A DNA stretch of 64,000 nt from Archangium gephyra (lineage in GTDB: Bacteria > Myxococcota > Myxococcia > Myxococcales > Myxococcaceae): positions 10,688,501 to 10,752,500 of the forward strand of contig NZ_CP011509.1 of assembly GCF_001027285.1 (NCBI RefSeq), in the 5' to 3' direction. The position numbers and the translations under genes are program-made. Below the pieces are notes generated by a model, which saw only the letters and a program-made list of their open reading frames with translations, did no database searches and was not told the origin of the DNA. Positions 456 through 14,744 of this stretch are shown here, one piece after another (the first letter of the stretch is position 1; every line of letters begins with the position of its first letter).

Positions 456-616
456 GGGGCGGACGGGGGGAGTGAACGGTCCGGGACACTCCCCCTGTCC
501 CAGCTGGTACACCCGCCCGGCCCCGGGTCCCGCAAGTGGCCGGAATCCGGGGCCTGGAGGCGCGGCACGCCGGGTGCTTTGGGGGGAAGGGAACCCACAC
601 CCCGGAGCACTCCTCC

Positions 617-1558
617 ATGAAACGCCTCCAGATTCTCACGCTCGGCCTGTTCGCGCTGGCCTTCGGCCTGGTCACCACCGGCTGCGGCAACCAGAACAGC
701 GTCACCATCAAGCTCACCGATGCGCCGGGTGACTTCAAGGCCGCCGTCGTCACCATCTCCGAGGTCTATCTCCAGGGTGCGGAGGGCCGCGTGGTCCTCA
801 GCAACGAGGCCACCACCACCAACCTGGTGACGCTGGCCAACGACACCAAGGACATCGTCAAGGACGCCATCGTCCCCGCGGGCAAGTACTCCGAGCTGCG
901 CTTCGTCATCTCCGGCGCGTACATCGAGGTGGAGCAGGAGGACGGCAGCACGGCCATCTTCGCCACCTCCAACGACTACGCGGGCCTGCCCGAGGGCGCC
1001 ACCGTCTCCGGCATCCTGCAGACCCCCAGCTTCAGCACCTCCGGCGTGAAGGTGAAGCTCGACGGCGACGGCGTGGAGGTGCAGGGCGAGCAGAAGGTCA
1101 TCCTGGTGGACTTCGACGTGTCCCAGAGCTTCGGCAAGGACCGCGGCCAGGGTGACAAGTGGGTGATGAAGCCGGTCATCAAGGGCGGAGAGATGGTGTT
1201 CAGCGGCAGCGTGAACGTGACGCTGGCCCAGGGCGAGGGTGTGAGCCTGCCCACCCTGAACGGCACGCCCGTGACGCTGGGCGCCTTCCGCGCCACGCTC
1301 AAGAGCACCGAGACCGACCCGGATGGCGCCTCCGCTCCCGCCGCCGAGGAGATTGCCCTGACGGACCTCAACGGTGACGGCGTGTTCGAGGCGAGCTTCA
1401 AGTTCCTCGTGCCCGGCAACTACGAGGTGAGCTTCGTGGCTCCCGAGGGCCTGAGCTTCACCACCAACCCCGGCATCCCGGCCCCCGTCACCATCGGCTC
1501 GGGCACGGACCAGTCGAAGGCCTTCGTGCTGACCTCGGCCTCCATCACGGTGCGCTAG
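617..1558 (+). CDS. DUF4382-family lipoprotein
   Basis: A 313-residue exported protein. Met617 is chosen because a GGAG lies at 604-607 and it begins a lipoprotein signal peptide (MKRLQ, hydrophobic stretch, TTGC lipobox with Cys at about residue 20). The mature protein starts with the DUF4382 signature (VTIKLTDAPGDFKAAVVTI) and continues as a beta-rich domain to about residue 200. A second beta-sandwich region (about 205-313) follows, resembling carboxypeptidase-like or Ig-like surface domains. The family is found in bacterial surface lipoproteins of unknown function. It probably sits in the outer membrane. It faces the next gene convergently, with a hairpin between them. Confidence 0.8.
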   Translation: MKRLQILTLGLFALAFGLVTTGCGNQNSVTIKLTDAPGDFKAAVVTISEVYLQGAEGRVVLSNEATTTNLVTLANDTKDIVKDAIVPAGKYSELRFVISGAYIEVEQEDGSTAIFATSNDYAGLPEGATVSGILQTPSFSTSGVKVKLDGDGVEVQGEQKVILVDFDVSQSFGKDRGQGDKWVMKPVIKGGEMVFSGSVNVTLAQGEGVSLPTLNGTPVTLGAFRATLKSTETDPDGASAPAAEEIALTDLNGDGVFEASFKFLVPGNYEVSFVAPEGLSFTTNPGIPAPVTIGSGTDQSKAFVLTSASITVR

Positions 1559-1639
1559 CGAGCGGCTCCTCAGAAAACGGAAGAGTCCCGAGCGGACTTG
1601 TAGTAACCTGACTTCCCCAGTAGTACCCCCCTCAGTTGT

Positions 1640-1680
1640 ACCGGACGGGGATACGGCACGGCACCGTATCCCCGTTCGGT
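1640..1680. terminator. strong hairpin between convergent genes, probable bidirectional terminator
   Basis: Two 17-base arms (1640-1656 and 1664-1680) pair along their whole length with one G-T wobble around a 7-base loop. It lies between the stop of the DUF4382 gene (1558) and the minus-strand stop at 1692. There is only a short pyrimidine run downstream (CTTT), so the intrinsic strength is uncertain, but position and symmetry support a shared terminator. Confidence 0.7.
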
Positions 1681-1691
1681 CTTTGCGGGGC

Positions 1692-2669
1692 TCAGAGAAG
1701 CGAGAGCTGTTTGGGCGCGCCGAGCGCACGTGCATCCAGGCCGTGCCCGCGCAGCACCTCGGCCAGCTCCTCGGCGAAACCGTGCAGGGTGATGACGTCC
1801 CGGGCGCCGGTGGCCTTCACGTAGCGCACCAGTGACGGGCAGTCGGCATGGTCCGAGAGCGGGAAGGCCACGTCCGCGTTGTAGCGCCGCGTGGCCCCGG
1901 CCCCATCCAGCGCCCAGCCGGTGAGCACGGCGGTGGCGCGAGGCCAGAGAGGCGCGAGCGCCCCACCCCGGTTGAGGTGCGGTGGGAAGAAGAGGACCTC
2001 GCCCGGCTCCACGTGGCCCTCGTAGCGCCGCAGCGGCTCGATGGGGACGCCGAGCTCGCCGTAGAGCTTCGTCACTTCGTAGATGGAGGGATGGGCCACC
2101 AGCGGGAAGCCGCGGTCCGCCAGGTACTTCATCGCCTCCTGGCTCTTGCCCAGCGCATAGGCCAGCAGCACCGGCACCGCGCCACGCTCCAGGTGACGGC
2201 GCACCCAGGACTCCACCTGCCCCAGCACCTCCTCGCGCGGCGGGAAGACGTAGCGCGGGTGCCCGAAGGTGGACTCGATGACGAGCACGTCGCACTCGGC
2301 CACCTCGGCGGGCTCGGCGGTGAGCGAGGGCGCCAGGCTGATGTCCCCCGTGTAGACGATGCGCTTGCCGTCCTCGCGGGTGACGCGAAGCTGCGCGCTG
2401 CCCAGGACATGGCCCGCGGGCAGCAGCTCCAGGGTGAGCGAGCCCAGCGAGAAGGGTTGCCCATAGGGCACGGACAGCGGCGCGCTGAGGGTACCCAACC
2501 GGTGCGCCATGAGCCGCAACGTGGCGGCCGTGGCGATGGTGCGCTCGTGCCGGGCGATGTGGTCCGAGTGCGCGTGGCTGACGAAGGACAGCGGGGACTT
2601 GCGCTTCGCATCCAGGGACAGCGGCGTCCCCGTCAGGTGCAGTCCGTTCCTTCGCAGCTCGACGCTCAT
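1692..2669 (-). CDS. metallo-beta-lactamase-fold exonuclease (ligase-associated exonuclease type)
   Basis: A 325-residue protein of the beta-lactamase/beta-CASP nuclease superfamily. The metal motif H32-A-H34-S-D36-H37 is intact. Further conserved motifs follow: GHVLGSAQ, VYTGD, an LLAYALGKSQE segment, and LSDHAD near residue 270. The length and the short form without a KH domain match the DNA-ligase-associated exonucleases rather than CPSF-type RNA nucleases. No ligase or Lhr helicase gene is next to it; the upstream neighbour is an EamA transporter 50 bases away. A role in DNA or RNA end processing is inferred from the fold. Confidence 0.8.
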   Translation of the reverse strand: MSVELRRNGLHLTGTPLSLDAKRKSPLSFVSHAHSDHIARHERTIATAATLRLMAHRLGTLSAPLSVPYGQPFSLGSLTLELLPAGHVLGSAQLRVTREDGKRIVYTGDISLAPSLTAEPAEVAECDVLVIESTFGHPRYVFPPREEVLGQVESWVRRHLERGAVPVLLAYALGKSQEAMKYLADRGFPLVAHPSIYEVTKLYGELGVPIEPLRRYEGHVEPGEVLFFPPHLNRGGALAPLWPRATAVLTGWALDGAGATRRYNADVAFPLSDHADCPSLVRYVKATGARDVITLHGFAEELAEVLRGHGLDARALGAPKQLSLL

Positions 2670-2719
2670 GGGAAGCGCTGGGTATAGCGCGTCCCGGCGG
2701 CCATGCACGTCTTCTCGCC

Positions 2720-3685
2720 CTACTCGCTGGCTGGAGCGTCCGGCAGGCGGGGAGCCGTGCGCGCGCGTACCTTGTCCCAGAGATGGCCTCCGAGCTCGGC
2801 CACCAGCACACCCAGGACGATGAGGCCTCCGCCCACCCACTCGCGCGGGCCGAGCGTCTCGTAGCCGAGCGCCACCGAGTACACGCCGGCGAAGACGGGC
2901 TCCATGGAGCAGATGAGCGCCACGCGGACCGCGGTGGTGCGCGCCTGCGCCCACGTCTGGATGCAGATGGCCAGCGCGCTGGCGAAGAGGCCGCAGAAGG
3001 CCGCCGCGCCCACGAAGGACGGCGTCCACTCCACCCGGGCCCCGGCGAAGGGCAGGCAGAGCAGGGACAGCAGGGACACCACCCACAGCTGCACCCCCAC
3101 GAGCGCCACCACGCCCGACTTCGGCGCGTACCGCTCGGTGAGGAGGATGTGGAAGGCGTAGGCGAGCGCGCAACCCAGCGTCAGCCAGTCCCCCCGGGAG
3201 AGGCCCTGCCCCGCGTCCAGCTCCGCGCCGGTGAGGTAGCGCATGCCCACCGCCGCCAGCACCACGCCCACCCACGAGGAGAGGCGCGGCACCCGCCGGA
3301 AGAGGGCCAGCCCCAGCACCGGGACGAGCACCACGTACAACCCGGTGATGAAGGCCGAGCGCGAGGGCGTGGTGGACACCAGTCCCACCGTCTGCAGGGC
3401 GAAGCCGAGGAAGAGGAAGACGCCCATCAGCAGTCCCCGGCGCAGCGTCTGGGGGACGAGCAGCTCGCGCCGGGCGACGGCCGTGAGCGCCAGCGCGCCG
3501 ATGCTGAAGCGCAGCGCGAGGAAGGAGAAGGGGTCTCCATGGCTGAGCGCCCCCTTCACCACCACGAAGGTGATGCCCCAGAAGGCGGTGATGAGGGCCA
3601 GGGCCCCGTCCGCCTGGAGGCGCACCCGCGCCTCGGTGTGGGACGGGATGCCCGTCGTCTGCGTCGGTGCCGGAGTGCTGCTCAC
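2720..3685 (-). CDS. EamA/DMT-family membrane transporter
   Basis: A 321-residue integral membrane protein with about ten hydrophobic segments, starting with ALALITAFWGITFVVVKG, a typical first EamA helix. The two-repeat layout (about 28-160 and 175-300) is that of drug/metabolite transporters. It starts 15 bases downstream of the S24/S26-GNAT gene on the same strand, so it may be co-transcribed with the RiPP-like operon and could be its exporter. That role is only inferred from position; the substrate cannot be told from sequence. Confidence 0.85.
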   Translation of the reverse strand: MSSTPAPTQTTGIPSHTEARVRLQADGALALITAFWGITFVVVKGALSHGDPFSFLALRFSIGALALTAVARRELLVPQTLRRGLLMGVFLFLGFALQTVGLVSTTPSRSAFITGLYVVLVPVLGLALFRRVPRLSSWVGVVLAAVGMRYLTGAELDAGQGLSRGDWLTLGCALAYAFHILLTERYAPKSGVVALVGVQLWVVSLLSLLCLPFAGARVEWTPSFVGAAAFCGLFASALAICIQTWAQARTTAVRVALICSMEPVFAGVYSVALGYETLGPREWVGGGLIVLGVLVAELGGHLWDKVRARTAPRLPDAPASE

Positions 3686-3700
3686 GGGGCTGCTTTTGGC

Positions 3701-4486
3701 CTACCCACCGGGCCGATGCAATGGGAGAGACGGCACCTTCCAGCCTCGAGCCCTCGCCTGCCGGGCGAGCTCCCGCAGGAGCGCTCCGTCCACGCCGAGC
3801 CCTCGGGCCACCGGGGCCACTCCGTGCCACCGCACCCGCGCGCTCCCCTCCTCCGCGTAGAGGAAGCCCCGGAGCCGGCCCCTCGCGTCGAAAGCCCCCA
3901 GCGCCAGTCCCGTGCCCCGGGCGAGCTCCGCTCCCAGCTCCGCCGCCGCGAGGGGCAGGTGGTGCCCCACGAAGACGAGCAGGGCCTGCGCCTCACCGGG
4001 ACGCAGCGGGCGCACCGTCCACGCGCCGAGCCACCGGGCCCGCCCGGGCCTCGTCCACGCAGAGGTTCCCCACTCTCGCGCCAGCCGCAGGGCGCCTCGT
4101 GACACGGGGCTGTGGAAGGCCGTGGTGCCCAGGCGCTGCGCGGCACGAAGCAGCGGGCGCGCGAACACGGGCACGGGCAGCTCCACGCCCCGTGTCCGCA
4201 CGCGGATGACGCGTCCGAGCAGCTCGGCGGACGGGTCCTCGCGTCCCAGCAGCGAGGCGGTGCGCACCGGGGACGTGCCCGTCACGAGGTGCGCGGTCAG
4301 CCCGCCATCCGCCCGCAGCAGCACGGCGAGGTCCCCCGGAGCCACCGCCTCCGCCGCGCACCGGAGCACCTGGAGGGAGTCACCACTGCGCAACAGGGGC
4401 CACATGCTGCGGCCCAGTCCTCGCACCCAGAGCCTCCCGCCCTCCGGGAGCTGGCGCAGCACCTGCCCCACGGCCACGGACGTCAC
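3701..4486 (-). CDS. S24/S26 (LexA/signal-peptidase-like) domain fused to a GNAT-like domain
   Basis: A 261-residue protein read from a GTG at 4486-4484, whose TGA-overlapping context (GTGA) couples it to the kinase-like gene upstream. Residues 1-110 look like an S24/S26 peptidase core: GRSMWPLL with candidate nucleophile Ser27, then GDLAVLL and a TAHLV segment with His66 where SipW-type peptidases carry histidine instead of lysine. Residues about 150-261 end in VAPVARGLGVDGALL, which resembles the acetyl-CoA-binding loop of GNAT acetyltransferases. In the operon it could trim or acetylate the small peptide at 5253. Activity is inferred, and the peptidase domain may be a degenerate binding module. 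Confidence 0.65.
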   Translation of the reverse strand: MTSVAVGQVLRQLPEGGRLWVRGLGRSMWPLLRSGDSLQVLRCAAEAVAPGDLAVLLRADGGLTAHLVTGTSPVRTASLLGREDPSAELLGRVIRVRTRGVELPVPVFARPLLRAAQRLGTTAFHSPVSRGALRLAREWGTSAWTRPGRARWLGAWTVRPLRPGEAQALLVFVGHHLPLAAAELGAELARGTGLALGAFDARGRLRGFLYAEEGSARVRWHGVAPVARGLGVDGALLRELARQARARGWKVPSLPLHRPGG

Positions 4487-5253
4487 GCCGCCTCCACGAA
4501 GTCCCTCGCGAAGACGCCCGCGTCCGGCGACTTGCGGCAGGTGAAGCGGAACAGGCCCACGCCTCCAGCCAGCGCCACCGCACGCGCCGCCAGCTCCGGG
4601 CGCGACACCGTTCCCGGAGGCGGCCGGTAGGCCTGCTGCAACAGGAGGCGCACCGCTTCCGGGGCCTCCACGGGACTCACCGACTCGGCCGGGCCCTTCA
4701 CCACCCAGACGATGCGCGCCAGCCGCGCCGCCGCGCACGTGGGCACCAGGTCCGCATCCGAGCGGAACGGACTCCCATGCACCTGGCCCGAGGGCAGCAG
4801 CCCCACCGTCTCGTCCGACAGCAGCGCGCCTCCCGCCGCCACCGCGCTGCGCGCCAGCGTGGACTTGCCAGCGCCACTCGGGCCCACGATGACCAGCGCC
4901 CCCGTGGAGAACGCCACCGCCGCCGCGTGGAGCAGCAGGCCTCCCTGGCGCAGTACGCTCACCAGCACCGCCGCCCGGAGCGCCGCCTCCGCCGCGAAGG
5001 GGTCCGGAGGGATGTGCGCCACCACCCGCTCGGCCTCCACCTCGACGGAGCCCCACACGGGCCGCTGCGCATCCAGGAGGAAGCCCCGCGCAGCCGCCTC
5101 GGGAGACGCGGGACGGGCACTCAGGCGCAACCGGGGGGAGCCCGCCTGCCCGGAGGGCTGGAGGTGGGACCAGACGCACCGCTGCTCGAGCAGCGGAACG
5201 AGCCCGTCCTCCACCTCGATGACGCCCTCCCCCGCCCGCACCTCACAACCCAT
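4483..5253 (-). CDS. HPr-kinase/PEPCK-like P-loop ATPase (RiPP-cluster type)
   Basis: A 256-residue protein with a P-loop GPSGAGKST at 124-132, preceded by LLLHAAAV (His109) and followed by LLSDETV (Asp147, Glu148). This arrangement is typical of HprK-like kinases, but the HPr-binding N-terminal domain is missing. Proteins of this size occur in lasso-peptide and other PqqD-containing peptide clusters. Its ATG overlaps the stop of the peptide gene by one base (TGATG), and its stop overlaps the GTG start of the next gene, so translation of all three is probably coupled. It may phosphorylate or activate the peptide; no substrate is proven. Confidence 0.75.
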   Translation of the reverse strand: MGCEVRAGEGVIEVEDGLVPLLEQRCVWSHLQPSGQAGSPRLRLSARPASPEAAARGFLLDAQRPVWGSVEVEAERVVAHIPPDPFAAEAALRAAVLVSVLRQGGLLLHAAAVAFSTGALVIVGPSGAGKSTLARSAVAAGGALLSDETVGLLPSGQVHGSPFRSDADLVPTCAAARLARIVWVVKGPAESVSPVEAPEAVRLLLQQAYRPPPGTVSRPELAARAVALAGGVGLFRFTCRKSPDAGVFARDFVEAA

Positions 5254-5399
5254 CAGAAATCGCCGTCAGGGGGACGGATGTCGCAGTTGGGCTCGCACTC
5301 CTGTCCCTGGGAGGCGAAGAGGTTGGCCACGAGAATCTTCTCCGAACGGATCGCCGGAGGCCGGTAGGGCCGCTTGCGCTTCCTGGTCTCGTCGGGCAT
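5253..5399 (-). CDS. short peptide, candidate RiPP precursor
   Basis: A 48-residue peptide beginning MPDETRKRKRPYRPPAIRSE. Two in-frame ATGs exist (5405 and 5399); the AGAGGA at 5411-5406 leaves no gap before the first and six bases before the second, so the second is chosen. The N-terminal half is basic and has a Y-x-x-P-x-I/L spacing like leader peptides bound by PqqD/RRE domains. The C-terminal half (SQGQECEPNCDIRPPDGDF) has two cysteines and many Asp/Glu/Pro and could be a modified core. It lies 12 bases after the giant lipoprotein gene and overlaps the HprK-like gene. It could instead be a small structural partner of that lipoprotein. Confidence 0.7.
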   Translation of the reverse strand: MPDETRKRKRPYRPPAIRSEKILVANLFASQGQECEPNCDIRPPDGDF

Positions 5400-5405
5400 C
5401 GCCAT

Positions 5406-5411
5406 TCCTCT
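5406..5411 (-). promoter_or_regulatory. ribosome binding site deciding the peptide start
   Basis: AGAGGA on the minus strand directly follows the TGA of the giant lipoprotein gene. It lies six bases before ATG 5399-5397 and abuts ATG 5405-5403, which favours the downstream start for the 48-residue peptide. Confidence 0.55.
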
Positions 5412-8400
5412 TCAATACCAGATCTGCACCCGGGCGCCGCGGGTGTCGAGGTTGTCTCCCGCCGCGATGTCCGGCCGGCCGTCCGCGTTGAAGTCCCCCG
5501 TGGTCACGCTCACCCCCAGCGCCCCGGCACCCGAGTAGGTGACACGTCCCTGGCTCAACCCGCCCACGTTCCGCTCGAACTCCGAGCCCGGGGTCGCCTG
5601 GTTGTAGAGCACCCAGACCGAGCCGCCCGACAGGATGTTCGTCCCGGCGATGATGTCCGTCCGCCCGTCCCCGTTGATGTCGGCGCAGGCCAGCCCGTTG
5701 CCGAAGTTGTTGGCCCCCGCGATGGTCATGGTCCCGGAGGGGGGATAGCCCACCACGTCGCCATCCGCGTACACGTGGAGGCGGTTCGCGAAGGGATAGC
5801 TGATCACCAGGTCACGCCCCGAGCCGCCCACCAGGTCCACGTTGGCGCACGCCTCCGTGCCGAAACCATCGAAGCGGGTGTCGGAGGTCGTCGACTGGGA
5901 GAGCCTCTGCAAGGCCGAGCCGGCCGGGATGGAGGCCGTGGCATCCACCACCGCCTTGCCGGAGAAGAGATAGAACCGGTTGAGCAGCTCGCGCGAAGCC
6001 GGCAGCGCGAAGTCCCCGTAGCCATCGCCGGTGATGTCTCCCAGCCAGGCCACGCCACGCTGACGGCCGAAGGTGTTGATGGCGGTGGAGACCGGAGGCG
6101 ACTCGCCGGTGAAGATGCGGTCCGCCCGGGTGGCGGGGACGTGGCAGCGCTCACTGGCCACCGAGCAGGGCGCCCCCGAGGTGGAATCCAGCTGCAGGGC
6201 GTCCCACTGCGCCCGTTTGCGCCCGAAGAAGAGGTACACCCGCCCCACGCCGCTGTTCTCGTAGGAGGAGCTGAGCACCACCTCGCCGAGGCCATCCCCG
6301 TTGATGTCGCCGATGATGCGCGCCGCCACTCCGAGCCGCCCGCCCGCCACCGTCCCCCGGAACTCGATGGGCGTCGGGTCCACGACCTTCGACGGGTCCA
6401 GGGAGCCGCCGAAGTAGAGGAAGGCCCGGCCGAGATTGCTGTTCCAACCGGACGCCCCCACGAGCAGGTCCGCCTTCCCCTCGGTGGACGCATCCCCCAC
6501 GTTGCCCACGGCGAGATCGATACCGAAGTACTGCACCAGGCTGTCCGGTGGCTGCAGGACCTGCATGGCGCCACTGCTTCCCGAGGGGAAGAGGTTCGCC
6601 CCCGAGTACACGTACACCGCGCCCCGGTTGGACTCCTGGTCGAAGTTGGCGACCACGAGGTCATCGCCCGGCGTGCTGTCCAGGTTGCCGGAGGCCACGA
6701 GGTAGCCGAAGCGGGAACCGATCCCCGTCCCCGGGCCGGGCACCTCGCGGTTGCGCAGGAAGTTATCCACCGTCACGGGCGCGGCGATGCGGCTGTAGTT
6801 GCCCACCTCGTCACGAGCACGGAGCTGGAGGGAGTAGGAGGTCAACGCGGGCAGCGGCGTGAGGGTGAAGGCCGTGGTGGTAGCGGCCAGCGGCGTGGCA
6901 CTGGCCTGCTTCACCTTGCCGTTGAAGAAGAGCGCATCCGTGGTGATGCCGCCCGCCTGGGCGACGATCGTCGACCAGCGCAGGTCATACCCCGTGGGCT
7001 CCCCGGAGGCGGTGTCCGAGCCATCGTCCTTCACGGCGGTCCAGTTGACGGCCACCGAGGCGGTGCGCTCGGCCCCCGCCACGACGTTGGCCGTCACCAC
7101 CGGGGCCGCCGGAGGCCGGACGTCCACGGTGACGGTGGCGCTCCGGCGCGTCTCGTTGCCAGCGGCGTCGCTCGCCACGATGACCAGGGAGCCCGTCGTG
7201 CCATGCGGCAGGATGATGGGCAGGTCCAGCGACTTGTCATCCGAGTCGAGCACCACCGCCGGCTTCACCAGGTCCACGTCGTTGTAGAGGACGCGCACCG
7301 TGCCGTTGTTGCCGCCCGTCACGCGGAAGGCGAGCTTCGCATCGGCGTCCCCGTCCGGAGTGAGGTCGGCGATGTAGTGGGAAGGCACGGGGGTGCGGAA
7401 GAAGGCCTCGTTGGAGTCGGCCACGTAGAAGAGCGTCGTCGCGGACGGAACCACGCTCGCGAGGCCCGGCCCCGTGAGGTCGACGGAGATGCTGGCGGAG
7501 ACGGAGGTGGGGGTGCGGCCGTCGTCCATCTCGAGGCGCAGCGTGGTGGTCGCCGCATCCGGGAGCGTGACGTTGAAGCCGAAGGCGCCGGTGCTCGCGT
7601 CCGCCGTGGCCGTGGCCTCGGGCGTCGTCGCCGAGCCGCGGAACAGGCGGACCTGACGTCCCATGCACACGCTCGTCACGCCCTCGAGGCGGTACTGCAG
7701 GCCCGCCGCCGCCGGATTGAGATCGTCCTTCTGGATCAACGTGACCGCCGTGCCCGAGGGCTTCGTGAAGCGCTGGTCGCACCCCTCGAAGGTGACGTTG
7801 ACGTTCTCCACGAGGACGACGGCGGTGTTGCCCACCACGTCACTCACCTCGAAGCGGATGTCCTGCACGCCAAGCACCAGGTTCGTCTTCACGGAGATCA
7901 GCCCGTCAGTGCCCACGATGGGAGACGCGAGCGGCACGGGGGCACGCCCGTCCTTGGGGACACTGGTGAGGCTGACCGTCCGGCCCGTGGCACCGGACAC
8001 GGTGGCGCGAAGCTCCACGATGGACGAGCTCAGCTCCGAGCCCGAGGCCGGCGTGGGCGCCACCGGCACCAGCACGGGCGCCTCGAAGTCCACCGTCGCG
8101 GTCCGCGTGACGACCGTCTGGTTGCCGGCCTCGTCAGTGGCCTGGAGGCGGAACGTATAGGTCGTGAGGCCCGAGGTGGAGACCGTGAAGGGCTCGGAGA
8201 TCTTCAACGCGGAGGGCGTGAGCTTCCGGAGCTCACCTGACGGGGCGACCTGGATCTCCACACCCTCGGCCCCCACATCGGGGCTCGTCCGGGCGGAGAG
8301 GAGGAGCTGATAGCCCGGGGTGGCGGGGACCATGTCATCCCTGGGGCCGAAGACGGTCTTGTCCGGAGGCGACACGTCCGCGAGGACCGGGGGGAAGCGA

Positions 8401-11300
8401 TCCAACCGGAACTGCGCGAAAGCCGCGAGGTTGACCGGGTCCAGCGGTGTGGGGCTGGAGATCTTGTTGGAGTTGCTGGCCGCATCGGAGACGACCGCCA
8501 CCAGCGAGTAGCTGGCCTCCACCTGATTGGGGAGGCCGGTGAGCGGCACCCGGGCCACACCGCCGGACACATCCGCCTGTCCGAAGAGCGTTGCCCCCTT
8601 GGCATCGCGCACCTGCACCTTGCGCCCGTCCTCCACGCCGGTGAAGGACACGGTGACCGTCGGGGGAACACCCACGGGCGACTCCGACAGGTTGAGCTGC
8701 CCATCCTCGTTGTCGTCATCGTCGACGACGATGCTGGTGACGCGCGGGCGCACCGAGTCCACCAGCAGCGAGACCGCCGGGGTGTCCGTGGAGGCCGAGT
8801 CGTTCAGCACGGCCTTCAGGGCGTACTGGCCATCCGGGTAGGTGAAGTCCGCCACGAAGGCGGGCACGTCGGTGGCGAGCGTGAAGAAGCCCGAGCCATC
8901 CCGGCAGGGCGTGGCCGCCGGCACCAGGGCGATGCTCGTGCAGATGTCCACACGTCCTCCCGCGGCGGCGCCGGAGAGCGAGTACTGCAGGGGCGCCTGG
9001 ACACCGGGCTGCTCGGCGTTGCGATCCGAGGTCAGATTGAACTGGGTGGGCGGCAGGGGCCTGAGCAGCGTCAGGGTGCGCGTCGCGGTGTCCACGGTGA
9101 GCAACTCCGTGGCACAGGCCGACACGCCGGTGGCACTGACGAGCGTGGCCCGCAGGGGGTTGGCCCCCTCGTTGAGTTCCACACCGGAGAAGACCTTCTC
9201 CTGGCCGGCGTCCGAGGCGGTGACCGTCAGGGAGCCCACCTCGCGCGAGCCCAGGAAGAGCTTGAGCTGCCCGGCGCTGCCCGCGGACACCGACACACGC
9301 ACGTCCACCGCGAGCCCGCCACCGGAGCGGACCGTCCCGTCCGCGGAGCCCAGGGCCTTGCCCGCGGCGGGAGCGACAATGGCCAGGTGCGCGCCCGTGA
9401 GGCCGAGCGTCAGTGCCTTCTCCCGCGTGCTGCTGTTGCCAGCGGCATCCGTGACCTTGACGGACAGCGCGCACGTGCCCGTGGCGGGCACCGTCACCTC
9501 GCGCAACAGGGCGAGTCCAGAGGCATCGGCCACCGCGCGCACGTTGTTGCCCGGATCGCAGCCCGTGATGGCCACCGTGGCGAAGGGCTCGGTGCGGGCG
9601 GAGACGATGACCTGCGTGCCCGGCAGCGCGGAGGTGTCACGCGTCTGGGTGCCCAGCACACCACTCGCGCCGTCCTCGCTGGAGACGGACACCAGCACCT
9701 CGGGGCTCACAGTGTCCCGCGTCACGGTGAGCGCCTGGCTCACCCCAAGCGCACCACACTGGGCGACGAGCTGGTAGACGCCATCCGCGCCGAGCGCCAC
9801 CGACACCTGGGCGCTGCCGCCCGTCACGCTCCCCGTCACGCTCGTCTCCCCCCCGGACGGATTGCGCAGGCGGACCGAGACCGGACTCGTGCTCGTCTCC
9901 ACGCGCACGGACAGGGCCGGGTCCGACACCGCCACTCCCGGCAGCGGCGAGACGATGCGGCAGGCGGCGCGTCCGGTGCTCACGTTCACCGTCGCGCTCT
10001 TGCACGAGGCCGGCAGCGCGGGATTGCGCACACAGGCCTGCACGGCGTTGCTGCCCTCGGCGAGCGAGACGCGCCACGTCGCGAGACGCCCTCCCCCGGC
10101 CGCCGCCGCGGTGGCCACCCGCACCGGCGTGCCGGGCGTGCTCGTCACGGTCGTGGAGAACTCGATGACCGTGGCCGGATCGCTCGCGCTCGTCGTCGCG
10201 GTGACGTCCACCTGGATGCCGTTGGAGGCGTCACCGTCCACGTCCACCACGGACGATGGCGTGGAGAGCTCGACCGCATACGGCGTGGACGCCACCACCA
10301 CGTCGAAGGGCCGCTCCACCGGATTGCCACCGGAGTCCGTCACCCGCAGCGTGTAGGGGTACACACCTCCACCGGCAGCCACCACCTCCGGGAAGGAGAC
10401 GACGCCGCCGGACACCGTCGCCGACAGCGGCGTCTGCCCCTCGCGGGACAGCGTGGCCACCGTACCGTCCTCGCAGCAGCCCACCACCGCCTCCACCGTG
10501 AAGGTCGAGGAGGACACGGGCGCCACGGGCGCGGACAGCTCCACGCGCGGCGCCACCGAGTCCAGGGTGAAGCTGCGCTTGGAGCTCGCCACGTCCTGGT
10601 CTCCATAGCGCACCACCGCGTAACACTCGGCCACCTGCGCCTCGCACGCGGCCTCGGTGAGCGTCACCGGCACCTCGGTGAGACCGCCCGGCGCCACCGT
10701 GAAGTCCGCCGTGGGAATGCCGCAGGCATTGCCGCAGTAGAGCGTGCCCGCCCGGCCCGCCAGCCCGCTGGTGCGCAGCTTGAAGCGCACCTGGTAGCCC
10801 GGCGTGGTGGGGTCCACGTCGTCCGACTCGCGCAGCACCTGCCCCTCCGCGGGGCCGGAGATGTCCACGCTCCAGGGCTCGCCCCCCACCGTCACGCTCT
10901 GGCTGTGCGTGGCCGTGCGCTTGGAGCCCGCCTCCTCCACCGTCACCCGCAGCACGTTGGTGCGCCCCGGCAGCGTCACCCCGAGGAAGCGCACCCGGCC
11001 CCCGTCGATGAACGCGGCCGTCGTCTCGCGCCAGGTGGGCTCTCCCGGCAGCTGCACCTCCAGCTTCGCCCGGGCCATCGTCACCGCACGGCCCGACGAG
11101 TCCGTGGCCTCCGCCACCACGTCGTACTGGAAGCCCGCGGCCACCGGGTCCGCGTCATCCCCCTGCGCCAGCCGCTGGCCGTCCATCGGCTGCGCGAAGG
11201 CCACCGTCAGCTCGGACTCCACCGGCGGCGTGCCGCACGTACACCCCGCCACCCACAGCGCACACACCGCCAGAAGCCACTGCCATCCCGCTCGATGCAT
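5412..11300 (-). CDS. giant surface lipoprotein: Ig-like repeats, Fn3 domain, FG-GAP beta-propeller
   Basis: A 1962-residue protein. It starts with a lipoprotein signal (MHRAGWQWLLAVCALWVAGC, Cys20). Residues about 25-1390 are a chain of Ig-like/cadherin-like beta-sandwich repeats of roughly 90-110 residues. They carry repeated phrases such as TVSPEVLV, TDAAGNSSTR and ATDEAGNQT, typical of bacterial adhesion proteins. A fibronectin type III-like domain spans about 1394-1510. The C-terminus (about 1515-1962) has FG-GAP/VCBS-type repeats with DINGDG, DITGDGYGD, DINGDGRTD and DFNADGRPD calcium-binding loops, consistent with an integrin-alpha-like seven-bladed propeller. It probably lies on the cell surface. 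It begins 39 bases after a PqqD-like gene and ends just before the candidate precursor peptide, an odd place for an adhesin. Confidence 0.9.
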   Translation of the reverse strand: MHRAGWQWLLAVCALWVAGCTCGTPPVESELTVAFAQPMDGQRLAQGDDADPVAAGFQYDVVAEATDSSGRAVTMARAKLEVQLPGEPTWRETTAAFIDGGRVRFLGVTLPGRTNVLRVTVEEAGSKRTATHSQSVTVGGEPWSVDISGPAEGQVLRESDDVDPTTPGYQVRFKLRTSGLAGRAGTLYCGNACGIPTADFTVAPGGLTEVPVTLTEAACEAQVAECYAVVRYGDQDVASSKRSFTLDSVAPRVELSAPVAPVSSSTFTVEAVVGCCEDGTVATLSREGQTPLSATVSGGVVSFPEVVAAGGGVYPYTLRVTDSGGNPVERPFDVVVASTPYAVELSTPSSVVDVDGDASNGIQVDVTATTSASDPATVIEFSTTVTSTPGTPVRVATAAAAGGGRLATWRVSLAEGSNAVQACVRNPALPASCKSATVNVSTGRAACRIVSPLPGVAVSDPALSVRVETSTSPVSVRLRNPSGGETSVTGSVTGGSAQVSVALGADGVYQLVAQCGALGVSQALTVTRDTVSPEVLVSVSSEDGASGVLGTQTRDTSALPGTQVIVSARTEPFATVAITGCDPGNNVRAVADASGLALLREVTVPATGTCALSVKVTDAAGNSSTREKALTLGLTGAHLAIVAPAAGKALGSADGTVRSGGGLAVDVRVSVSAGSAGQLKLFLGSREVGSLTVTASDAGQEKVFSGVELNEGANPLRATLVSATGVSACATELLTVDTATRTLTLLRPLPPTQFNLTSDRNAEQPGVQAPLQYSLSGAAAGGRVDICTSIALVPAATPCRDGSGFFTLATDVPAFVADFTYPDGQYALKAVLNDSASTDTPAVSLLVDSVRPRVTSIVVDDDDNEDGQLNLSESPVGVPPTVTVSFTGVEDGRKVQVRDAKGATLFGQADVSGGVARVPLTGLPNQVEASYSLVAVVSDAASNSNKISSPTPLDPVNLAAFAQFRLDRFPPVLADVSPPDKTVFGPRDDMVPATPGYQLLLSARTSPDVGAEGVEIQVAPSGELRKLTPSALKISEPFTVSTSGLTTYTFRLQATDEAGNQTVVTRTATVDFEAPVLVPVAPTPASGSELSSSIVELRATVSGATGRTVSLTSVPKDGRAPVPLASPIVGTDGLISVKTNLVLGVQDIRFEVSDVVGNTAVVLVENVNVTFEGCDQRFTKPSGTAVTLIQKDDLNPAAAGLQYRLEGVTSVCMGRQVRLFRGSATTPEATATADASTGAFGFNVTLPDAATTTLRLEMDDGRTPTSVSASISVDLTGPGLASVVPSATTLFYVADSNEAFFRTPVPSHYIADLTPDGDADAKLAFRVTGGNNGTVRVLYNDVDLVKPAVVLDSDDKSLDLPIILPHGTTGSLVIVASDAAGNETRRSATVTVDVRPPAAPVVTANVVAGAERTASVAVNWTAVKDDGSDTASGEPTGYDLRWSTIVAQAGGITTDALFFNGKVKQASATPLAATTTAFTLTPLPALTSYSLQLRARDEVGNYSRIAAPVTVDNFLRNREVPGPGTGIGSRFGYLVASGNLDSTPGDDLVVANFDQESNRGAVYVYSGANLFPSGSSGAMQVLQPPDSLVQYFGIDLAVGNVGDASTEGKADLLVGASGWNSNLGRAFLYFGGSLDPSKVVDPTPIEFRGTVAGGRLGVAARIIGDINGDGLGEVVLSSSYENSGVGRVYLFFGRKRAQWDALQLDSTSGAPCSVASERCHVPATRADRIFTGESPPVSTAINTFGRQRGVAWLGDITGDGYGDFALPASRELLNRFYLFSGKAVVDATASIPAGSALQRLSQSTTSDTRFDGFGTEACANVDLVGGSGRDLVISYPFANRLHVYADGDVVGYPPSGTMTIAGANNFGNGLACADINGDGRTDIIAGTNILSGGSVWVLYNQATPGSEFERNVGGLSQGRVTYSGAGALGVSVTTGDFNADGRPDIAAGDNLDTRGARVQIWY

Positions 11301-11339
11301 GAGTCGCCTCTCGCTGTGCTGGGCCTGGCCCTTCCGGGC

Positions 11340-11651
11340 TCACGGCCCGAGCACCAGCACCTTCTTGTCCACCAGGAGCCTCACGAAGGAGACCGTGTCC
11401 CCACGGCATCGCGCCGGCTCCACCTCGAATTCCTCGCACAGCACGGCCACGATATCGCCCACCGTCCGACACCCGTCGACCAGCTCGAGGATGCGCTCGG
11501 CCACCTCGGACACCGCGCCGCCCTCGTCCTCGAACGTGTGCAGGGTGTCATCGGGGCCCACCGCCAACAGCCGATCTCCCACCCGCTGGACCCCCGCCTC
11601 CGGGTGGAGACGCGGCACCGCATCCATCACGTCATCCCCGCGCGTGCTCAC
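11340..11651 (-). CDS. PqqD-like peptide-recognition protein
   Basis: A 103-residue protein (a second Met at residue 9 is an alternative start). It has the PqqD pattern: a short beta hairpin region (PDDTLHTF), then helices ending in ILELVDGCRTVGDIVAVLCEEF and a final VRLLVDKKVLVL. PqqD domains bind leader peptides of ribosomally made, modified peptides and hand them to enzymes. It is the first gene of the minus-strand operon that carries the 48-residue peptide and the HprK-like gene, which supports a leader-binding role. Confidence 0.8.
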   Translation of the reverse strand: MSTRGDDVMDAVPRLHPEAGVQRVGDRLLAVGPDDTLHTFEDEGGAVSEVAERILELVDGCRTVGDIVAVLCEEFEVEPARCRGDTVSFVRLLVDKKVLVLGP

Positions 11652-11822
11652 CAGGCTCCCTCACCCCGCCTGTCCTCGACGAAATGGGTGGGATGCTACC
11701 GCGTCATAGACCCCCGGGCCAGGAACGCAGCCCGCTCGCTGGCCCTGTTGTCGACCACTCGGTAACCGCTATGACGCGGGGTGCGCCGCCCGCCAGGTGG
11801 CGTGAGGAGACAGGAAAAATCC

Positions 11823-12404
11823 ATGAACACGATGTCAGAGGGTCAGCTGGTCCCCCAGCCGGGCTGGTGGAGCCGCAACTGGAAGTGGGCGGTGCCCTCG
11901 GGCTGCCTGGGGCTGCTGCTGTCCTGTGGGTGCCTGGGCGCCCTGCTCTTCAGCGCCACCGCCTGGCAGTCCTTGAGGGGCACGGGCGTGCTGGTGGACG
12001 CGGTGACGCAGGCCAGGCAGTCCCTGGAGGTGCGCGAGGCGCTCGGCGAGCCCATCGAGTCGAGCACGGTGCCCCAGCAGTTCTCCATGCACTCGGGGAA
12101 CGAGGGGAGCTCGGCCCAGTTCGCCGTGGGCGTGCGGGGCCCCAAGGCCAGCGGCACCCTGTACGGGGAGGGCTACAAGAAGGACGACGAGGAAGTGTGG
12201 ACGTTCACCACGCTGAAGGTGGAGGTGCCGGATCATCCCGTCATCAACCTGCTCGGCCCCACGCCCGAGCCGGCTCCCGACATCGTCCCTTTCGATCCCA
12301 AGTCACTGCCAGACGTGGAGCCGCTGCCCGAGGACGATGAGCCCGCGCCTCGGAAACCCGAGCGCGGCAGGTCCGGGAAGGGCCAGGAGGACATCCAGCT
12401 CTGA
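11823..12404 (+). CDS. Coa1-like single-pass membrane protein
   Basis: A 193-residue protein. Met11823 is chosen because AGGA at 11812-11815 lies seven bases upstream. After a short cytoplasmic tail there is one membrane segment (about 19-45, LGLLLSCGCLGALLFSATAW). A soluble domain follows (about 50-145) with the alpha/beta pattern seen in Coa1/Tim21-type cytochrome oxidase assembly proteins, then a Pro/Glu-rich charged tail. It is divergent from the PqqD gene. The Coa1 assignment is a fold-level guess; a role in oxidase assembly is not shown by the neighbours. Confidence 0.6.
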   Translation: MNTMSEGQLVPQPGWWSRNWKWAVPSGCLGLLLSCGCLGALLFSATAWQSLRGTGVLVDAVTQARQSLEVREALGEPIESSTVPQQFSMHSGNEGSSAQFAVGVRGPKASGTLYGEGYKKDDEEVWTFTTLKVEVPDHPVINLLGPTPEPAPDIVPFDPKSLPDVEPLPEDDEPAPRKPERGRSGKGQEDIQL

Positions 12405-12493
12405 GGCCATTTCCCACGGCCATTCCACACGGCCATTTCCCACGGCCATTCCACACGGCCATTTCCACACGGCCATTTCCCACGGCCATTTCC
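12405..12493. repeat. tandem array of a 13-base unit (GGCCATT(T)CC(C)AC)
   Basis: About seven copies of a 13- or 14-base unit start directly after the TGA at 12402-12404: 12405, 12418, 12431, 12444, 12457, 12471, and a partial copy at 12484. Two sub-types alternate (GGCCATTTCCCAC and GGCCATTCCACAC). The array runs straight into the first hairpin repeat. It has no recognised function and looks like replication-slippage expansion. Confidence 0.85.
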
Positions 12494-12527
12494 CCTCTCC
12501 CCCCGGGAGAGGGACGGGGTGAGGGTA
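12493..12527 (+). repeat. dispersed hairpin repeat, copy 1 (forward)
   Basis: CCCTCTCCC (12493-12501), a CCC loop, GGGAGAGGG (12505-12513), then the tail ACGGGGTGAGGGTA. It forms an inverted pair with the copy at 12594-12626, about 66 bases away. The same element recurs at 39199-39316 and 49063-49097. Confidence 0.85.
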
Positions 12528-12593
12528 TCGGGTGAACGCGGGTTGAACCCCCTGTCTCCACTGTGGGCCACGGGTTGGAGAACGGATCCGGAT

Positions 12594-12626
12594 ACCCTCA
12601 CCCTGACCCTCTCCCGGGGGAGAGGG
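12594..12626 (-). repeat. dispersed hairpin repeat, copy 2 (reverse)
   Basis: The reverse-complement orientation of copy 1: the tail ACCCTCACCCTGA comes first, then CCCTCTCCC (12607-12615) and GGGAGAGGG (12618-12626). Copies 1 and 2 together look like a REP/BIME-style unit between the Coa1-like gene and etfA, and could terminate transcription from both sides. Confidence 0.85.
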
Positions 12627-12665
12627 ACTCTTGAGGGACTCTTGAGGGACTCTTGAGGGACTCTT
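12622..12665. repeat. four exact tandem copies of an 11-base unit
   Basis: GAGGGACTCTT is repeated four times without a mismatch (12622, 12633, 12644, 12655). The first copy overlaps the end of the hairpin repeat, suggesting it expanded from that element. The rest of the 12405-12784 gap holds no open frame I would call. Confidence 0.9.
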
Positions 12666-12784
12666 GGGCCTCTCTTCGCCCACGTTCCTCGAGTGACGCC
12701 CCCCCGCAACGGCGAAGGGGCGGCCGCGAGGAGTGTTCCCCCGCCACCGCCCCTCCTCCACCCAGGCCGCTCAGGCCCGAGTCA

Positions 12785-13753
12785 CTAGCCCTTGGCCTTG
12801 TGGATGGCCTCGCGCAGCGCGGGCAGCACCTTGAAGAGGTCGTCCACCAGTCCGTAGTCGGCCACCTGGAAGATGGGGGCCTCGGCGTCCTTGTTGATGG
12901 CGACGATCGTCTTGGAGCTCTTCATGCCCGCGAGGTGCTGGATGGCTCCGCTGATGCCCGCGGCGATGTACAGCTGCGGCGCCACGACCTTGCCCGTCTG
13001 GCCCACCTGCAAGTCGTTGGGCACCCAGCCGGCGTCACACACCGCGCGCGAGGCGCCCACCGCGGCGCCCAGCTCGTCGGCCAGCGCTTCAATCTCCTTG
13101 AAGTCGCCCTTGGTGCCGCGGCCACCGGAGACCACCACACGCGCCTCGGTCAGCTCGGGACGCGCGCTCTTGACCTCCTTGAAGTCCACGAACTTCGTCT
13201 TGCCCGTCTCCACCTTGGGCGAGAACGTCTTCACCTCGGCGGCGCCCTGGCCCCCCGCGGCCGCGGGGAACTCGGTGGCGCGCAGCGTGAACACCTTCAC
13301 CGGCGTGGTGAGCTTCACCTCGGCGAAGACGTTGCCCGCCCACATGGGCCGGCTGAACGACACGTCCGCGCCACCGCCGTTGAAGCCCATCACGTCCGTG
13401 GCCATGGCCGCCTGCAGGCGCGCCGCCACGCGGGGCATCAAGTCCTTGCCCTGCGCGGTGGACGCCATGCCCACGTAGCTGGCACCCAGCGACTTCGCCA
13501 GCTCGGCGATGGCCGGGGCATACGTCTCGGCCAGGTAGTGCTCGAACTCGGGCGCCGCGGCGGTGTGCACCGCCTTGGCCCCCAGGCCCGCCAGCTCACT
13601 GCCCACCTTGGAGGGGTCCTTGGAGAGCAGCACCAGGTGCAGCTCCGCGCCCGCCTTCTCCGCCAGCTGCTTGCCCGCGCTGACGGCGTTCAGGGTCGCC
13701 TTGCGCAGGTTCCCGTCCGGCTGCTGCTCCGCAACGATGAGAACGATCGGCAT
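12785..13753 (-). CDS. etfA: electron transfer flavoprotein, alpha subunit
   Basis: A 322-residue EtfA. The C-terminal FAD domain has the diagnostic GQTGKVVAPQLYIAAGISGA segment followed by IQHLAGM and the closing AINKDAEAPIFQVADYGLV. With EtfB it forms a soluble heterodimer that takes electrons from acyl-CoA dehydrogenases and passes them to ETF-quinone oxidoreductase. It follows etfB by 43 bases and an acyl-CoA dehydrogenase gene further upstream, so the three genes form a fatty-acid oxidation unit. The stop is TAG at 12787-12785. Confidence 0.97.
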   Translation of the reverse strand: MPIVLIVAEQQPDGNLRKATLNAVSAGKQLAEKAGAELHLVLLSKDPSKVGSELAGLGAKAVHTAAAPEFEHYLAETYAPAIAELAKSLGASYVGMASTAQGKDLMPRVAARLQAAMATDVMGFNGGGADVSFSRPMWAGNVFAEVKLTTPVKVFTLRATEFPAAAGGQGAAEVKTFSPKVETGKTKFVDFKEVKSARPELTEARVVVSGGRGTKGDFKEIEALADELGAAVGASRAVCDAGWVPNDLQVGQTGKVVAPQLYIAAGISGAIQHLAGMKSSKTIVAINKDAEAPIFQVADYGLVDDLFKVLPALREAIHKAKG

Positions 13754-13796
13754 GTTCGGCTCCAGATTCTCGAAGTAGTGAGGGAACGGGCCCCGG

Positions 13797-14594
13797 TCAG
13801 ACGACCTTCGCCTCGTTGCGCAGCTTCTCCACCAGCGTCGCCACGTCCGGCACCTTGATGCCGGCCTTGCGCGGCGGCGGAGAGGCCATCTTCGTCACCT
13901 GCACCTTGGGGGTGACGTCCACGCCCAGCTTCTGCGGCGTCAGCTCCTCGATGGGCTTGCTCTTGGCCTTCATGATGCCCGGCAGGCTCGCGTAGCGCGG
14001 CAGGTTCAGCCGCAGATCCGTGGTCACCACCGCCGGCAGCGCGCACTCGAGCGTGGCCAGCCCGTTGTCCACCTCGCGCACCACGCGCACGCTCTTGTTG
14101 TCCGCGCCCACCGTCAGCGCCGGCACCTTGTTCTTCTCCTGCTCGCTCTCCAGCGACTCCACCTTCGAGGCGAACGTGGCCTGGCCCCAGCCCAGGTACT
14201 CGGCCAGGTACTGGCCCACCTGGTTCTGGTCATCGTCGATGGCCTGCTTGCCCAGGATGACGAGGTCCGGCTTCTCCTTCTCGGCCACCTTCTGCAGCAG
14301 CCCCGCCACGCCCATCTGGTCCAACGGGCCCGTGTGGTTCACCCACACCGCGCGCGTCGCACCCATGGCCAGCGCATGCCGCAGCTGCTCCTGCACTTCC
14401 TTGCCGCCGATGGAGACCACCACCACCTCGCCGCCATGCTTGGCCACGAGGCGCAGTCCCTCTTCGACGCCAATCTCATCGAAGGGGTTGATCTTGTACT
14501 TGAGCCCCTCCTGCACGATGCCCGAGCCGTCCGGCTTCACCTTGATCTTGGACTCGGGGTCTTCCACGCGCTTGGCGGTGACGAGGATCTTCAC
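13797..14594 (-). CDS. etfB: electron transfer flavoprotein, beta subunit
   Basis: A 265-residue EtfB with the N-terminal MKILVTAKRVEDPESKIKV start. It also has NPFDEIGVEEGLRL, the AMP-binding region around GKQAIDDDQNQVGQYLAEYL, and the recognition-loop region near RYASLPGIMKAKSK. It pairs with EtfA encoded 43 bases downstream. A 150-base gap separates it from the acyl-CoA dehydrogenase upstream; nothing clear was seen in that gap apart from possible promoter sequence. Confidence 0.97.
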   Translation of the reverse strand: MKILVTAKRVEDPESKIKVKPDGSGIVQEGLKYKINPFDEIGVEEGLRLVAKHGGEVVVVSIGGKEVQEQLRHALAMGATRAVWVNHTGPLDQMGVAGLLQKVAEKEKPDLVILGKQAIDDDQNQVGQYLAEYLGWGQATFASKVESLESEQEKNKVPALTVGADNKSVRVVREVDNGLATLECALPAVVTTDLRLNLPRYASLPGIMKAKSKPIEELTPQKLGVDVTPKVQVTKMASPPPRKAGIKVPDVATLVEKLRNEAKVV

Positions 14595-14744
14595 GTCCTT
14601 CTCCTTAGAGCGGGTACTCCCAGAAATGGCGCAACAGGGCGCATGTGTTCATGACGCAACGCGCTGTGTCACGGGGCGTTGATCTACGCATCAACACCCA
14701 ACGACGGCAACGGAGAAGCGTCGACAGCGGACAGTTTTTCTTCC

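Follow-up and report, generated by a model that had tools for sequence, protein, structure and literature searches.

The closest described counterpart of the system presented here is that of the Linear Polyphosphorylated Peptides (LPP), reported in May 2026 from Paenibacillus alginolyticus and encoded there by lppAKBSDN: an RRE (recognition element of ribosomally synthesized and post-translationally modified peptides, RiPPs), an HprK-like kinase and a signal-peptidase-like leader peptidase serve a precursor with a YxxP leader, and there is no cyclase (PMC13381572). According to that report, LppK phosphorylates Ser3 of the core, which the LPP motif places at Tyr+18, LppS (S29/H68/D93) removes the leader with help from the RRE, and the final product and the role of LPPs are unknown. 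The discussion calls LPP restricted to Bacillota, the peptidase network only 'predominantly' so, and the LPPs of Bacilli appear patchy and transfer-rich (PMC13381572). Here we compare with LPP and related systems an operon of Archangium gephyra, found in a window of 64,000 nt of contig NZ_CP011509.1 (GCF_001027285.1, forward-strand positions 10,688,501-10,752,500).

Two further groups invite comparison. In the phospho-lasso cluster of Bradymonas sediminis, BsfK phosphorylates Ser3 of the precursor with the help of the RRE, and the bsf cluster is bordered by an FG-GAP protein that its authors took as presumably not involved (PMC10368454). Radical SAM RiPP cassettes (SynChlorMet, GeoRSP and those of Myxococcota relatives) unite PqqD, a YxPP peptide, an HprK-like kinase and an S24/SpI-like peptidase, as the locus studied here does. 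In the open-access literature we found no paper on SynChlorMet and no earlier report of LPP-like cassettes in Myxococcota.

The operon (positions 3701-11651 of the window) consists of five minus-strand genes which, read from 11651 towards 3701, encode a PqqD-like protein, a giant FG-GAP lipoprotein, a small peptide, an HprK-like kinase and a peptidase-GNAT fusion (Table 1). With a probability of roughly 0.6, it makes a phosphorylated, leader-cleaved, Cys-paired peptide by LPP-like logic, paired with the giant outer-surface lipoprotein. The PqqD-like protein would bind the YxPP leader; the HprK-like kinase would phosphorylate a conserved Ser/Thr at Tyr+18 or +19, close to where the core begins; the leader would be removed by the signal-peptidase-like Ser/His/Asp enzyme, aided by the RRE; the two core cysteines would pair outside the cell; and the product may act with or on the co-encoded FG-GAP lipoprotein. 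This reading is suggested by comparative sequence evidence, namely the gene set, the catalytic residues, the leader and Ser/Thr/Cys pattern, the dependence of the peptidase on the cassette and the linkage of peptide and secreted protein, from which we infer the phosphorylation, cut site, disulfide, export route and lipoprotein binding; phosphorylation and partner binding are thus predictions for the window system. By analogy, it is also favoured by the three-enzyme set, as in LPP, and by the phosphorylation of Ser3 by BsfK of Bradymonas, whose cluster is bordered by an FG-GAP gene (PMC10368454).

With LPP, the Archangium system shares a discrete PqqD-type RRE, an HprK-like kinase, an archaeal-type SpI Ser/His/Asp peptidase, a YxxP leader and the lack of a macrolactam cyclase; the peptides of a second kind of cassette (type 2, see below) match much of the LPP leader motif and have a Ser at the phosphosite. 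It differs in its presence in Myxococcota, its stable chromosomal position, its Cys-paired core, its lasting gene for a giant secreted protein and the GNAT fusion of its type-1 peptidase (type 1 being the FG-GAP kind of cassette found in the window). To judge from these comparisons the window system probably works like LPP; we do not claim membership of LPP, because we saw neither exporter nor NTP transferase and the motif is incomplete in the type-1 leader.

Phosphorylated lasso peptides (paeninodin type, Bsf) also have a YxxP/WxxP leader, an RRE and a core-acting HprK-like kinase, and Bsf is bordered by an FG-GAP gene, whereas the window has neither a macrolactam synthetase nor a B2 cysteine peptidase and would use an SpI-like serine peptidase for leader removal. 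Around the window cassette and in the second cassette of this genome, the called genes include no asparagine-synthetase-like macrolactam synthetase (no genome-wide search for it was made), and no B2 peptidase was found near an RRE, as the sole Transglut_core3 match of the genome lies at 11.32 Mb and the PqqD genes at 6.68 and 10.70 Mb. We therefore rejected a lasso peptide, with no cyclase seen in the cassettes and no B2 near either PqqD. The lanthipeptide and YcaO classes were likewise set aside, no such gene being among those called around the cassette (no genome-wide family search was made). 

An earlier interpretation of this DNA (hereafter, the original prediction) had proposed a RiPP-like operon with a leader binder and a kinase, which our analysis supports. 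The PqqD/kinase pair has no lasso connection, which would have counted against that proposal: both PqqD matches of the genome lie in HprK-like/peptidase cassettes, at least 0.6 Mb from Transglut_core3. Its view that the chemistry would be unlike the known classes has been overtaken, since the logic of RRE, HprK-like kinase and SpI-like peptidase is already published for LPP (PMC13381572). Of its guesses, the best backed are phosphorylation, trimming and a connection with the surface lipoprotein, but acetylation did not survive as a core step.

Conservation of the gene set and linkage of peptide and secreted protein

Of the 20 loci fetched first after tblastn with the window proteins, 18 (L034-L051) combine PqqD, FG-GAP, kinase and peptidase, with the order of kinase and peptidase swapped in L049; the remaining two were a paralogous type-2 cassette (L033) and a locus with dispersed genes (L052). 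The co-occurrence in relatives that the original prediction had suggested looking for is thus confirmed for these four genes. Among 145 genomes of the order, 96 have kinase matches (E up to 0.001), 54 a type-1 PqqD and 41 the C-terminal part of the FG-GAP protein. All 41 FG-GAP genomes contain type-1 PqqD, 39 of them on the same contig within ~7 kb (lists read by hand) and two, G049 and G133, on separate contigs; a kinase match occurs in 40 of the 41, on the same contig in 32. In many relatives, the conserved set sits at a stable chromosomal site.

The same genome carries a second cassette at ~6.68 Mb (L033, type 2), composed of genes for an SpI-like peptidase, a PqqD, a small protein, a 1025-residue secreted protein with PQQ_2/BamB-type propeller matches, a YEPP peptide and an HprK-like kinase. 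Compared with the window peptide, that of L033 resembles the LPP leader motif more closely. Type-2 cassettes were seen in many genomes of g19 and g5, genera in which type 1 has mostly been lost.

In both types, the peptide remains with the secreted protein. Its Tyr lies within 250 nt of the stop of the secreted protein gene in 47 of 48 type-1 and 42 of 43 type-2 places and, where a kinase was found, the kinase starts within 450 nt of the peptide in 35/42 and 43/44 places, respectively; these counts include four cassettes twice (L052/L146, L059/L147, L070/L082, L104/L108) and, with the duplicates removed by hand, become 45/46 and 41/42 for the secreted protein and 34/40 and 42/43 for the kinase. 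The kinase is at least 2.5 kb away on the same contig in L052, L058, L059 and L062 and on another contig in L078-L080 and L141-L144, and in all of them the peptide stays with the FG-GAP gene. The conservation of the peptide next to the kinase, to which the original prediction had tied its case, fails in several genomes, but there the peptide stands directly behind the FG-GAP gene. These observations, made on gene positions, point to a lasting linkage of peptide and secreted protein.

A third kind of partner appears in other Myxococcota, where cassettes with RRE, radical SAM, YxPP peptide and HprK adjoin large secreted C25 (gingipain-type) peptidases. Five of the six large secreted neighbours tested matched C25 (E 7.5e-33 to 1.4e-48), two of them in the order (L098, L100) and three outside it (L208, L209, L221); the neighbour in L205 had no match in this test.

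The peptide could instead be a diffusible LPP-like phosphopeptide natural product; the FG-GAP lipoprotein would then be a separate neighbour, a receptor or an immunity factor, not the place where the peptide acts. The enzyme set, the same as in LPP, would suit such a product, and the Bradymonas authors judged the adjoining FG-GAP protein presumably not involved (PMC10368454). However, the peptide keeps its place beside the secreted protein even in genomes whose kinase has moved, and the stable position on the chromosome in many relatives contrasts with the patchy, transfer-rich occurrence described for the LPPs of Bacilli (PMC13381572), so that we regard a diffusible product as rather unlikely.

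We conclude that the RiPP-type system is real and widely conserved, that it follows a recently described logic and that its lasting link with a giant secreted protein is unusual. What differs from LPP is the lasting partner gene, which encodes an FG-GAP lipoprotein here, a BamB-like propeller in type 2 and a C25 peptidase in some relatives, together with the radical SAM gene of many cassettes outside the window's family. If our reading of a phosphorylated peptide paired with the lipoprotein is true, the RiPP logic of kinase and signal peptidase, so far described from Bacillota, extends to a Gram-negative phylum at a stable chromosomal site, and the giant secreted partner becomes a concrete candidate target for such peptides, the role of LPPs being unknown. 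It would also put in a different light the FG-GAP gene that borders the bsf cluster of Bradymonas and was taken there as presumably not involved (PMC10368454).

Precursor peptides, kinase and peptidase

Pfam and NCBIfam gave no match for the window precursor peptide; tblastn with it found nothing at E up to 1 in L048-L050 and a match at 0.46 in L051, and the peptides there were located by motif. As the relatives' peptides were located with the help of YxxP, they contain it by construction. Type-2 peptides were chosen by Y..P.[IVL].W, which yielded 30 distinct sequences from 44 loci, many of them near-identical relatives, with Y0, P3, I/V/L5 and W7 present by construction. Type-1 peptides were chosen by [YW]..P.[VILTMC] plus a Cys anywhere (except for three loci where Cys-free peptides were allowed), and chance frames were removed via a hand-made prefix list, as was a chance frame in L124. 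This set contains 46 distinct peptides, some of them associated with radical SAM genes; two without core Cys were excluded from the cysteine test.

At positions independent of the picking, the 30 type-2 peptides are highly conserved: L14 and A/T at 15 are present in all of them, L6 in 25, Q9 in 28 and S/T18 in 29. The type-2 peptide of the Archangium genome fits the LPP motif YxxPxVLxHQxIxFETxxS without gaps, an alignment that puts its Ser18 at the LPP phosphosite and its residue 15 at the LPP cut site (-1). Type 2 and the LPP leader motif agree at Y, P and V/I (by construction) and at L, Q and S18, but not at H8, F13 and E14. Type-1 leaders share with the motif Y, P, V/I and an S/T at 18-19, but not its HQ and FET parts. 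An S/T occupies +18 or +19 in all 17 type-1 peptides with the LF motif, and in 36 of the 44 type-1 peptides with core Cys one is found no more than two residues from the first of these cysteines (1000 shuffles: mean 17.5, maximum 29). The number of cysteines is even in 38 of these 44, and exactly two in 29 of 30 type-2 peptides.

In the kinase alignment, H109, K130 and D147 occur in all 54 sequences and E148 in 52. The window kinase matches the NCBIfam models HprK_rel_A (7.3e-9, best), HprK_rel_B (4.5e-7) and ScmC (0.0011), all below cut-off, and the kinase profile reaches the HprK/P structures 1jb1/1kkl/2qmh at E 0.0053 over positions 103-148; phmmer against the PDB with the kinase alone gave generic P-loop matches. 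The spacing of H109, K130 and D147 equals what we take to be that of His140, the P-loop at 155 and Asp178 in HprK/P.

In the alignment of the peptidase (A2, 10 rows), S27, H66 and D84 are invariant, and the Ser-to-His spacing is 39 in the window peptidase and in LppS alike. We presume these residues to form a Sec11-type triad. The window copy had no family match in Pfam/NCBIfam scans; type-2 peptidases match TIGR02228 sigpep_I_arch (4.7e-7) and the maturation protease of Ni-SOD, without reaching either cut-off. Among solved structures, A2 retrieves GNATs for the most part, and SEC11 and LexA appear no better than at E 0.08-0.3. The GNAT half was confirmed in two relatives (Acetyltransf_1, 5.4e-12 and 6.6e-10), is cut short in the window copy, had no match in L049, a relative with an intact cassette, and is not part of type-2 peptidases. 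Thus, the fusion described in the original prediction stands, but its S24/S26 half is better described as a signal-peptidase-like enzyme that has a Ser/His/Asp triad, and its acetyltransferase half, recognisable in relatives, is truncated in the window and unmatched in L049.

The fate of this protein after cassette loss constitutes a natural experiment. Neither genus g5 nor, apart from G120, genus g19 appears in the full lists of type-1 PqqD and FG-GAP genomes. In six of their regions that we read (L148-L152, L157), a peptidase-GNAT gene persists at the old site between etfA and the DMT gene, with no matches to the other four cassette genes. We counted triads in 41 cassette-less genomes (all 26 of g19 without G120 and 15 of the 16 of g5, the G063 fragment being unread); L138 (partial) and L156 (paralog) were left out of the triad count. 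Of these 41, 31 have a broken triad, where Ser is replaced by Cys, Gly or Asp, His by Gln or Arg and Asp by other residues, and ten an intact one. In cassette-bearing genomes it is intact in 29/29, including five with the peptidase elsewhere. On a tree that retained the triad columns, the label 'broken' needs five changes, four of them forced by well-supported branches. Five genomes (G056, G061, G069, G094 and G111) combine a broken orphan peptidase with an intact type-2 peptidase that lies next to its own cassette; G117 has intact copies of the two. These sequence comparisons are good evidence that the peptidase active site depends on the cassette, and its repeated decay after cassette loss offers a natural genetic test of enzyme and substrate.

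The orphan peptidase-GNAT proteins (L148-L152, L157-L192) often have a dead peptidase site and a conserved GNAT half, with overall identities of 65-87% to the L045 protein. The window shows the reverse, a GNAT cut short and an intact peptidase. As the GNAT half is kept without the cassette, it should have a function of its own, independent of the peptide. Acetylation as a core step was rejected, the GNAT being cut short in the window, unmatched in L049 and outside type-2 peptidases, yet kept where the peptide has been lost; it looks dispensable.

One could also dispense with a RiPP altogether and imagine a relay of kinase and peptidase that controls the display or shedding of the giant lipoprotein, with the small open reading frame (ORF) as a regulatory peptide. 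As far as we are aware, HprK proteins are regulatory kinases and signal-peptidase-like enzymes process surface proteins, which would be in line with such a relay. Against it, a YxxP leader together with an RRE is a RiPP hallmark, and the Ser/Thr and Cys pattern of the core and the fit of type 2 to the LPP motif suit a processed peptide; we hold the relay to be very improbable.

Several observations weigh against the phosphorylated, leader-cleaved peptide that we favour. The peptide system is known here from genes alone. Because the search for peptides was confined to the surroundings of the secreted protein or the kinase and used YxxP and, mostly, a Cys, their adjacency, Tyr, Pro and Cys are partly by construction. 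HQ and FET are missing from type-1 leaders, as are H8 and FET from type-2 leaders; several type-1 peptides have Q or D at the cut site, where a small residue would be expected; and the candidate phosphosite shifts between +18 and +19, being replaced in the dispersed group by one near an 'LLxC[S/T]' motif. In the kinase profile search, the HprK/P structures are outranked by a designed P-loop protein (1.3e-9) and by several ABC transporters, and single-sequence AlphaFold models reached a pLDDT of only 35 for the kinase and 31 for the FG-GAP C-terminus. Eight FG-GAP genomes of the 41, namely G052 and seven from genus g26, have the kinase on another contig, and G049 (80% complete) is the sole one without a kinase match. 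Counterparts of LppN (NTP transferase) and LppD (MsbA-like ABC exporter) are not among the genes called at 57-15881 (no genome-wide search was made), and no exporter is certain for the window operon. Finally, ten cassette-less genomes retain an intact triad; these orphan triads and the persistence of the GNAT half mean that the fusion protein also has another role.

Radical SAM genes in deeper relatives

Of 161 loci of the order, 14 matched a radical SAM profile, and none of these belongs to the window's family; the profile had no match in the window or in the fetched loci of that family, of which short ones could not show a neighbour. The gene adjoins the kinase in L082 (the place of L070), L087, L076 and L086 (type 1) and in L089 (type 2), with L076, L086 and L087 confirmed by Pfam Radical_SAM, and L098-L100 are further cassettes with radical SAM, peptide and kinase. 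No radical SAM gene was seen in L068, L069 and L083, and L067 is a contig end. Among 20 chosen loci outside the order (17 genomes), some of them cut by contig ends, the profile matched 19, with a peptidase in 16 and PqqD in 13. The window operon and the fetched loci of its family differ from radical SAM RiPP cassettes in having no such gene, and the scores against the SynChlorMet and GeoRSP families stay below cut-off. As the original prediction put it, no familiar maturase, neither lasso cyclase nor radical SAM, stands beside the operon, but it overlooked the radical SAM genes in such cassettes of several relatives outside the family.

Their presence in these cassettes, and in 19 of the 20 loci outside the order, could mean that a radical SAM enzyme acting in trans modifies the Archangium core first, kinase and peptidase being secondary. 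This seems quite improbable to us: the L089 radical SAM protein as query gave only two weak partial matches in the window genome (best 6.6e-11, query residues 24-156), against near full-length ones of 8.4e-34 or better in five other genomes, each at most 0.7 kb from a kinase match (read by hand). With this query, a maturase in trans was rejected for lack of an ortholog in the window genome. The radical SAM profile likewise finds nothing in the fetched loci of the family, the short ones among which could not show a neighbour, and the core pattern without radical SAM is the Cys-paired one.

The simplest reading is that the window's family lost the radical SAM step and kept kinase, RRE and peptidase, the alternative being gain elsewhere. 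More tentatively, the Myxococcota peptides served by RRE, kinase and SpI might be phosphorylated, Cys-paired and bound as subunits, cofactors or switches to the surface beta-propellers (types 1 and 2) and C25 peptidases (type 3) encoded with them, not free products; the window's family would then have lost an older radical SAM step and retained the branch that phosphorylates.

Two side observations concern the pairing of radical SAM and kinase. L088:2291-4243 and L106:350-2302 each encode one 650-residue protein made of a radical SAM domain and an HprK-like kinase, beside more radical SAM genes and PqqD. A Walker A pattern scan of genome contigs gave L198-L201, judged by ORF list only; among the matches listed, two look like paeninodin-type lasso clusters and one like a radical SAM-YxxP peptide-HprK cassette. 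At L199:8406-8567, on an Anaerolineales contig, a radical SAM-like gene, a three-Cys YxxP peptide and an HprK-like match point to such a pairing beyond Myxococcota.

Operon layout and neighbouring genes

All five minus-strand genes were found where the original prediction had located them, and the tight packing it had noted for the last three was measured as a 1-nt overlap of peptide and HprK genes (TGATG) and a 4-nt overlap of HprK and peptidase genes (GTGA); the gaps are 39 nt between PqqD and FG-GAP and 6 nt between FG-GAP and peptide. The precursor may alternatively start at the second ATG (48 aa, 5253-5399). The giant lipoprotein has a signal peptide with a lipobox (...WVAGC-like, by sequence reading), Ig-like stretches and FG-GAP repeats in three stretches, the best near the C-terminus, where we expect an integrin-type propeller.

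Table 1 Features of the Archangium gephyra operon and its downstream neighbour (window positions).
Feature	Position	Strand	Remark
PqqD-like RiPP recognition element, 103 aa	11340..11651	-	Pfam PqqD 3.5e-12
Giant lipoprotein, 1962 residues	5412..11300	-	Pfam FG-GAP 8.9e-15, Big_13 6.3e-10
Precursor peptide, 50 aa	5253..5405	-	Kept behind FG-GAP gene in relatives
YRPP leader motif (YxxP, RRE-binding type)	5355..5366	-	Position checked
Ser at Tyr+18, candidate phosphosite (inferred)	5310..5312	-	S/T at +18 or +19 in 17/17 LF-type peptides
C-E-P-N-C, paired core cysteines (predicted)	5283..5297	-	Even Cys number in 38/44 type-1 peptides with core Cys
HprK-like kinase, 256 aa	4483..5253	-	Catalytic-type residues H109, K130, D147, E148
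Signal-peptidase-like (SpI/S26-type) leader peptidase with C-terminally cut-short GNAT	3701..4486	-	S27, H66, D84
DMT/EamA transporter	2720..3685	-	Pfam EamA 2.2e-33; 15 nt downstream of peptidase-GNAT gene

The five-gene list was correct as far as it went but had left out the DMT/EamA gene that follows, a possible operon member and candidate exporter. As a dedicated exporter it is a weak candidate, which we rejected: it is still at the site after the loss of the other cassette genes, and this argues against a dedicated role in the cassette. On the other side of the cassette, between it and etfA, a small-protein gene of unknown function (11823-12404) lies on the opposite, plus strand; it is kept in many relatives, even after cassette loss. 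The intergenic region at 12380-12700 contains short repeats (ATGGCCGTG-type units and CCCTCAAGAGT units) and an inverted GAGGG/CCCTC pair.

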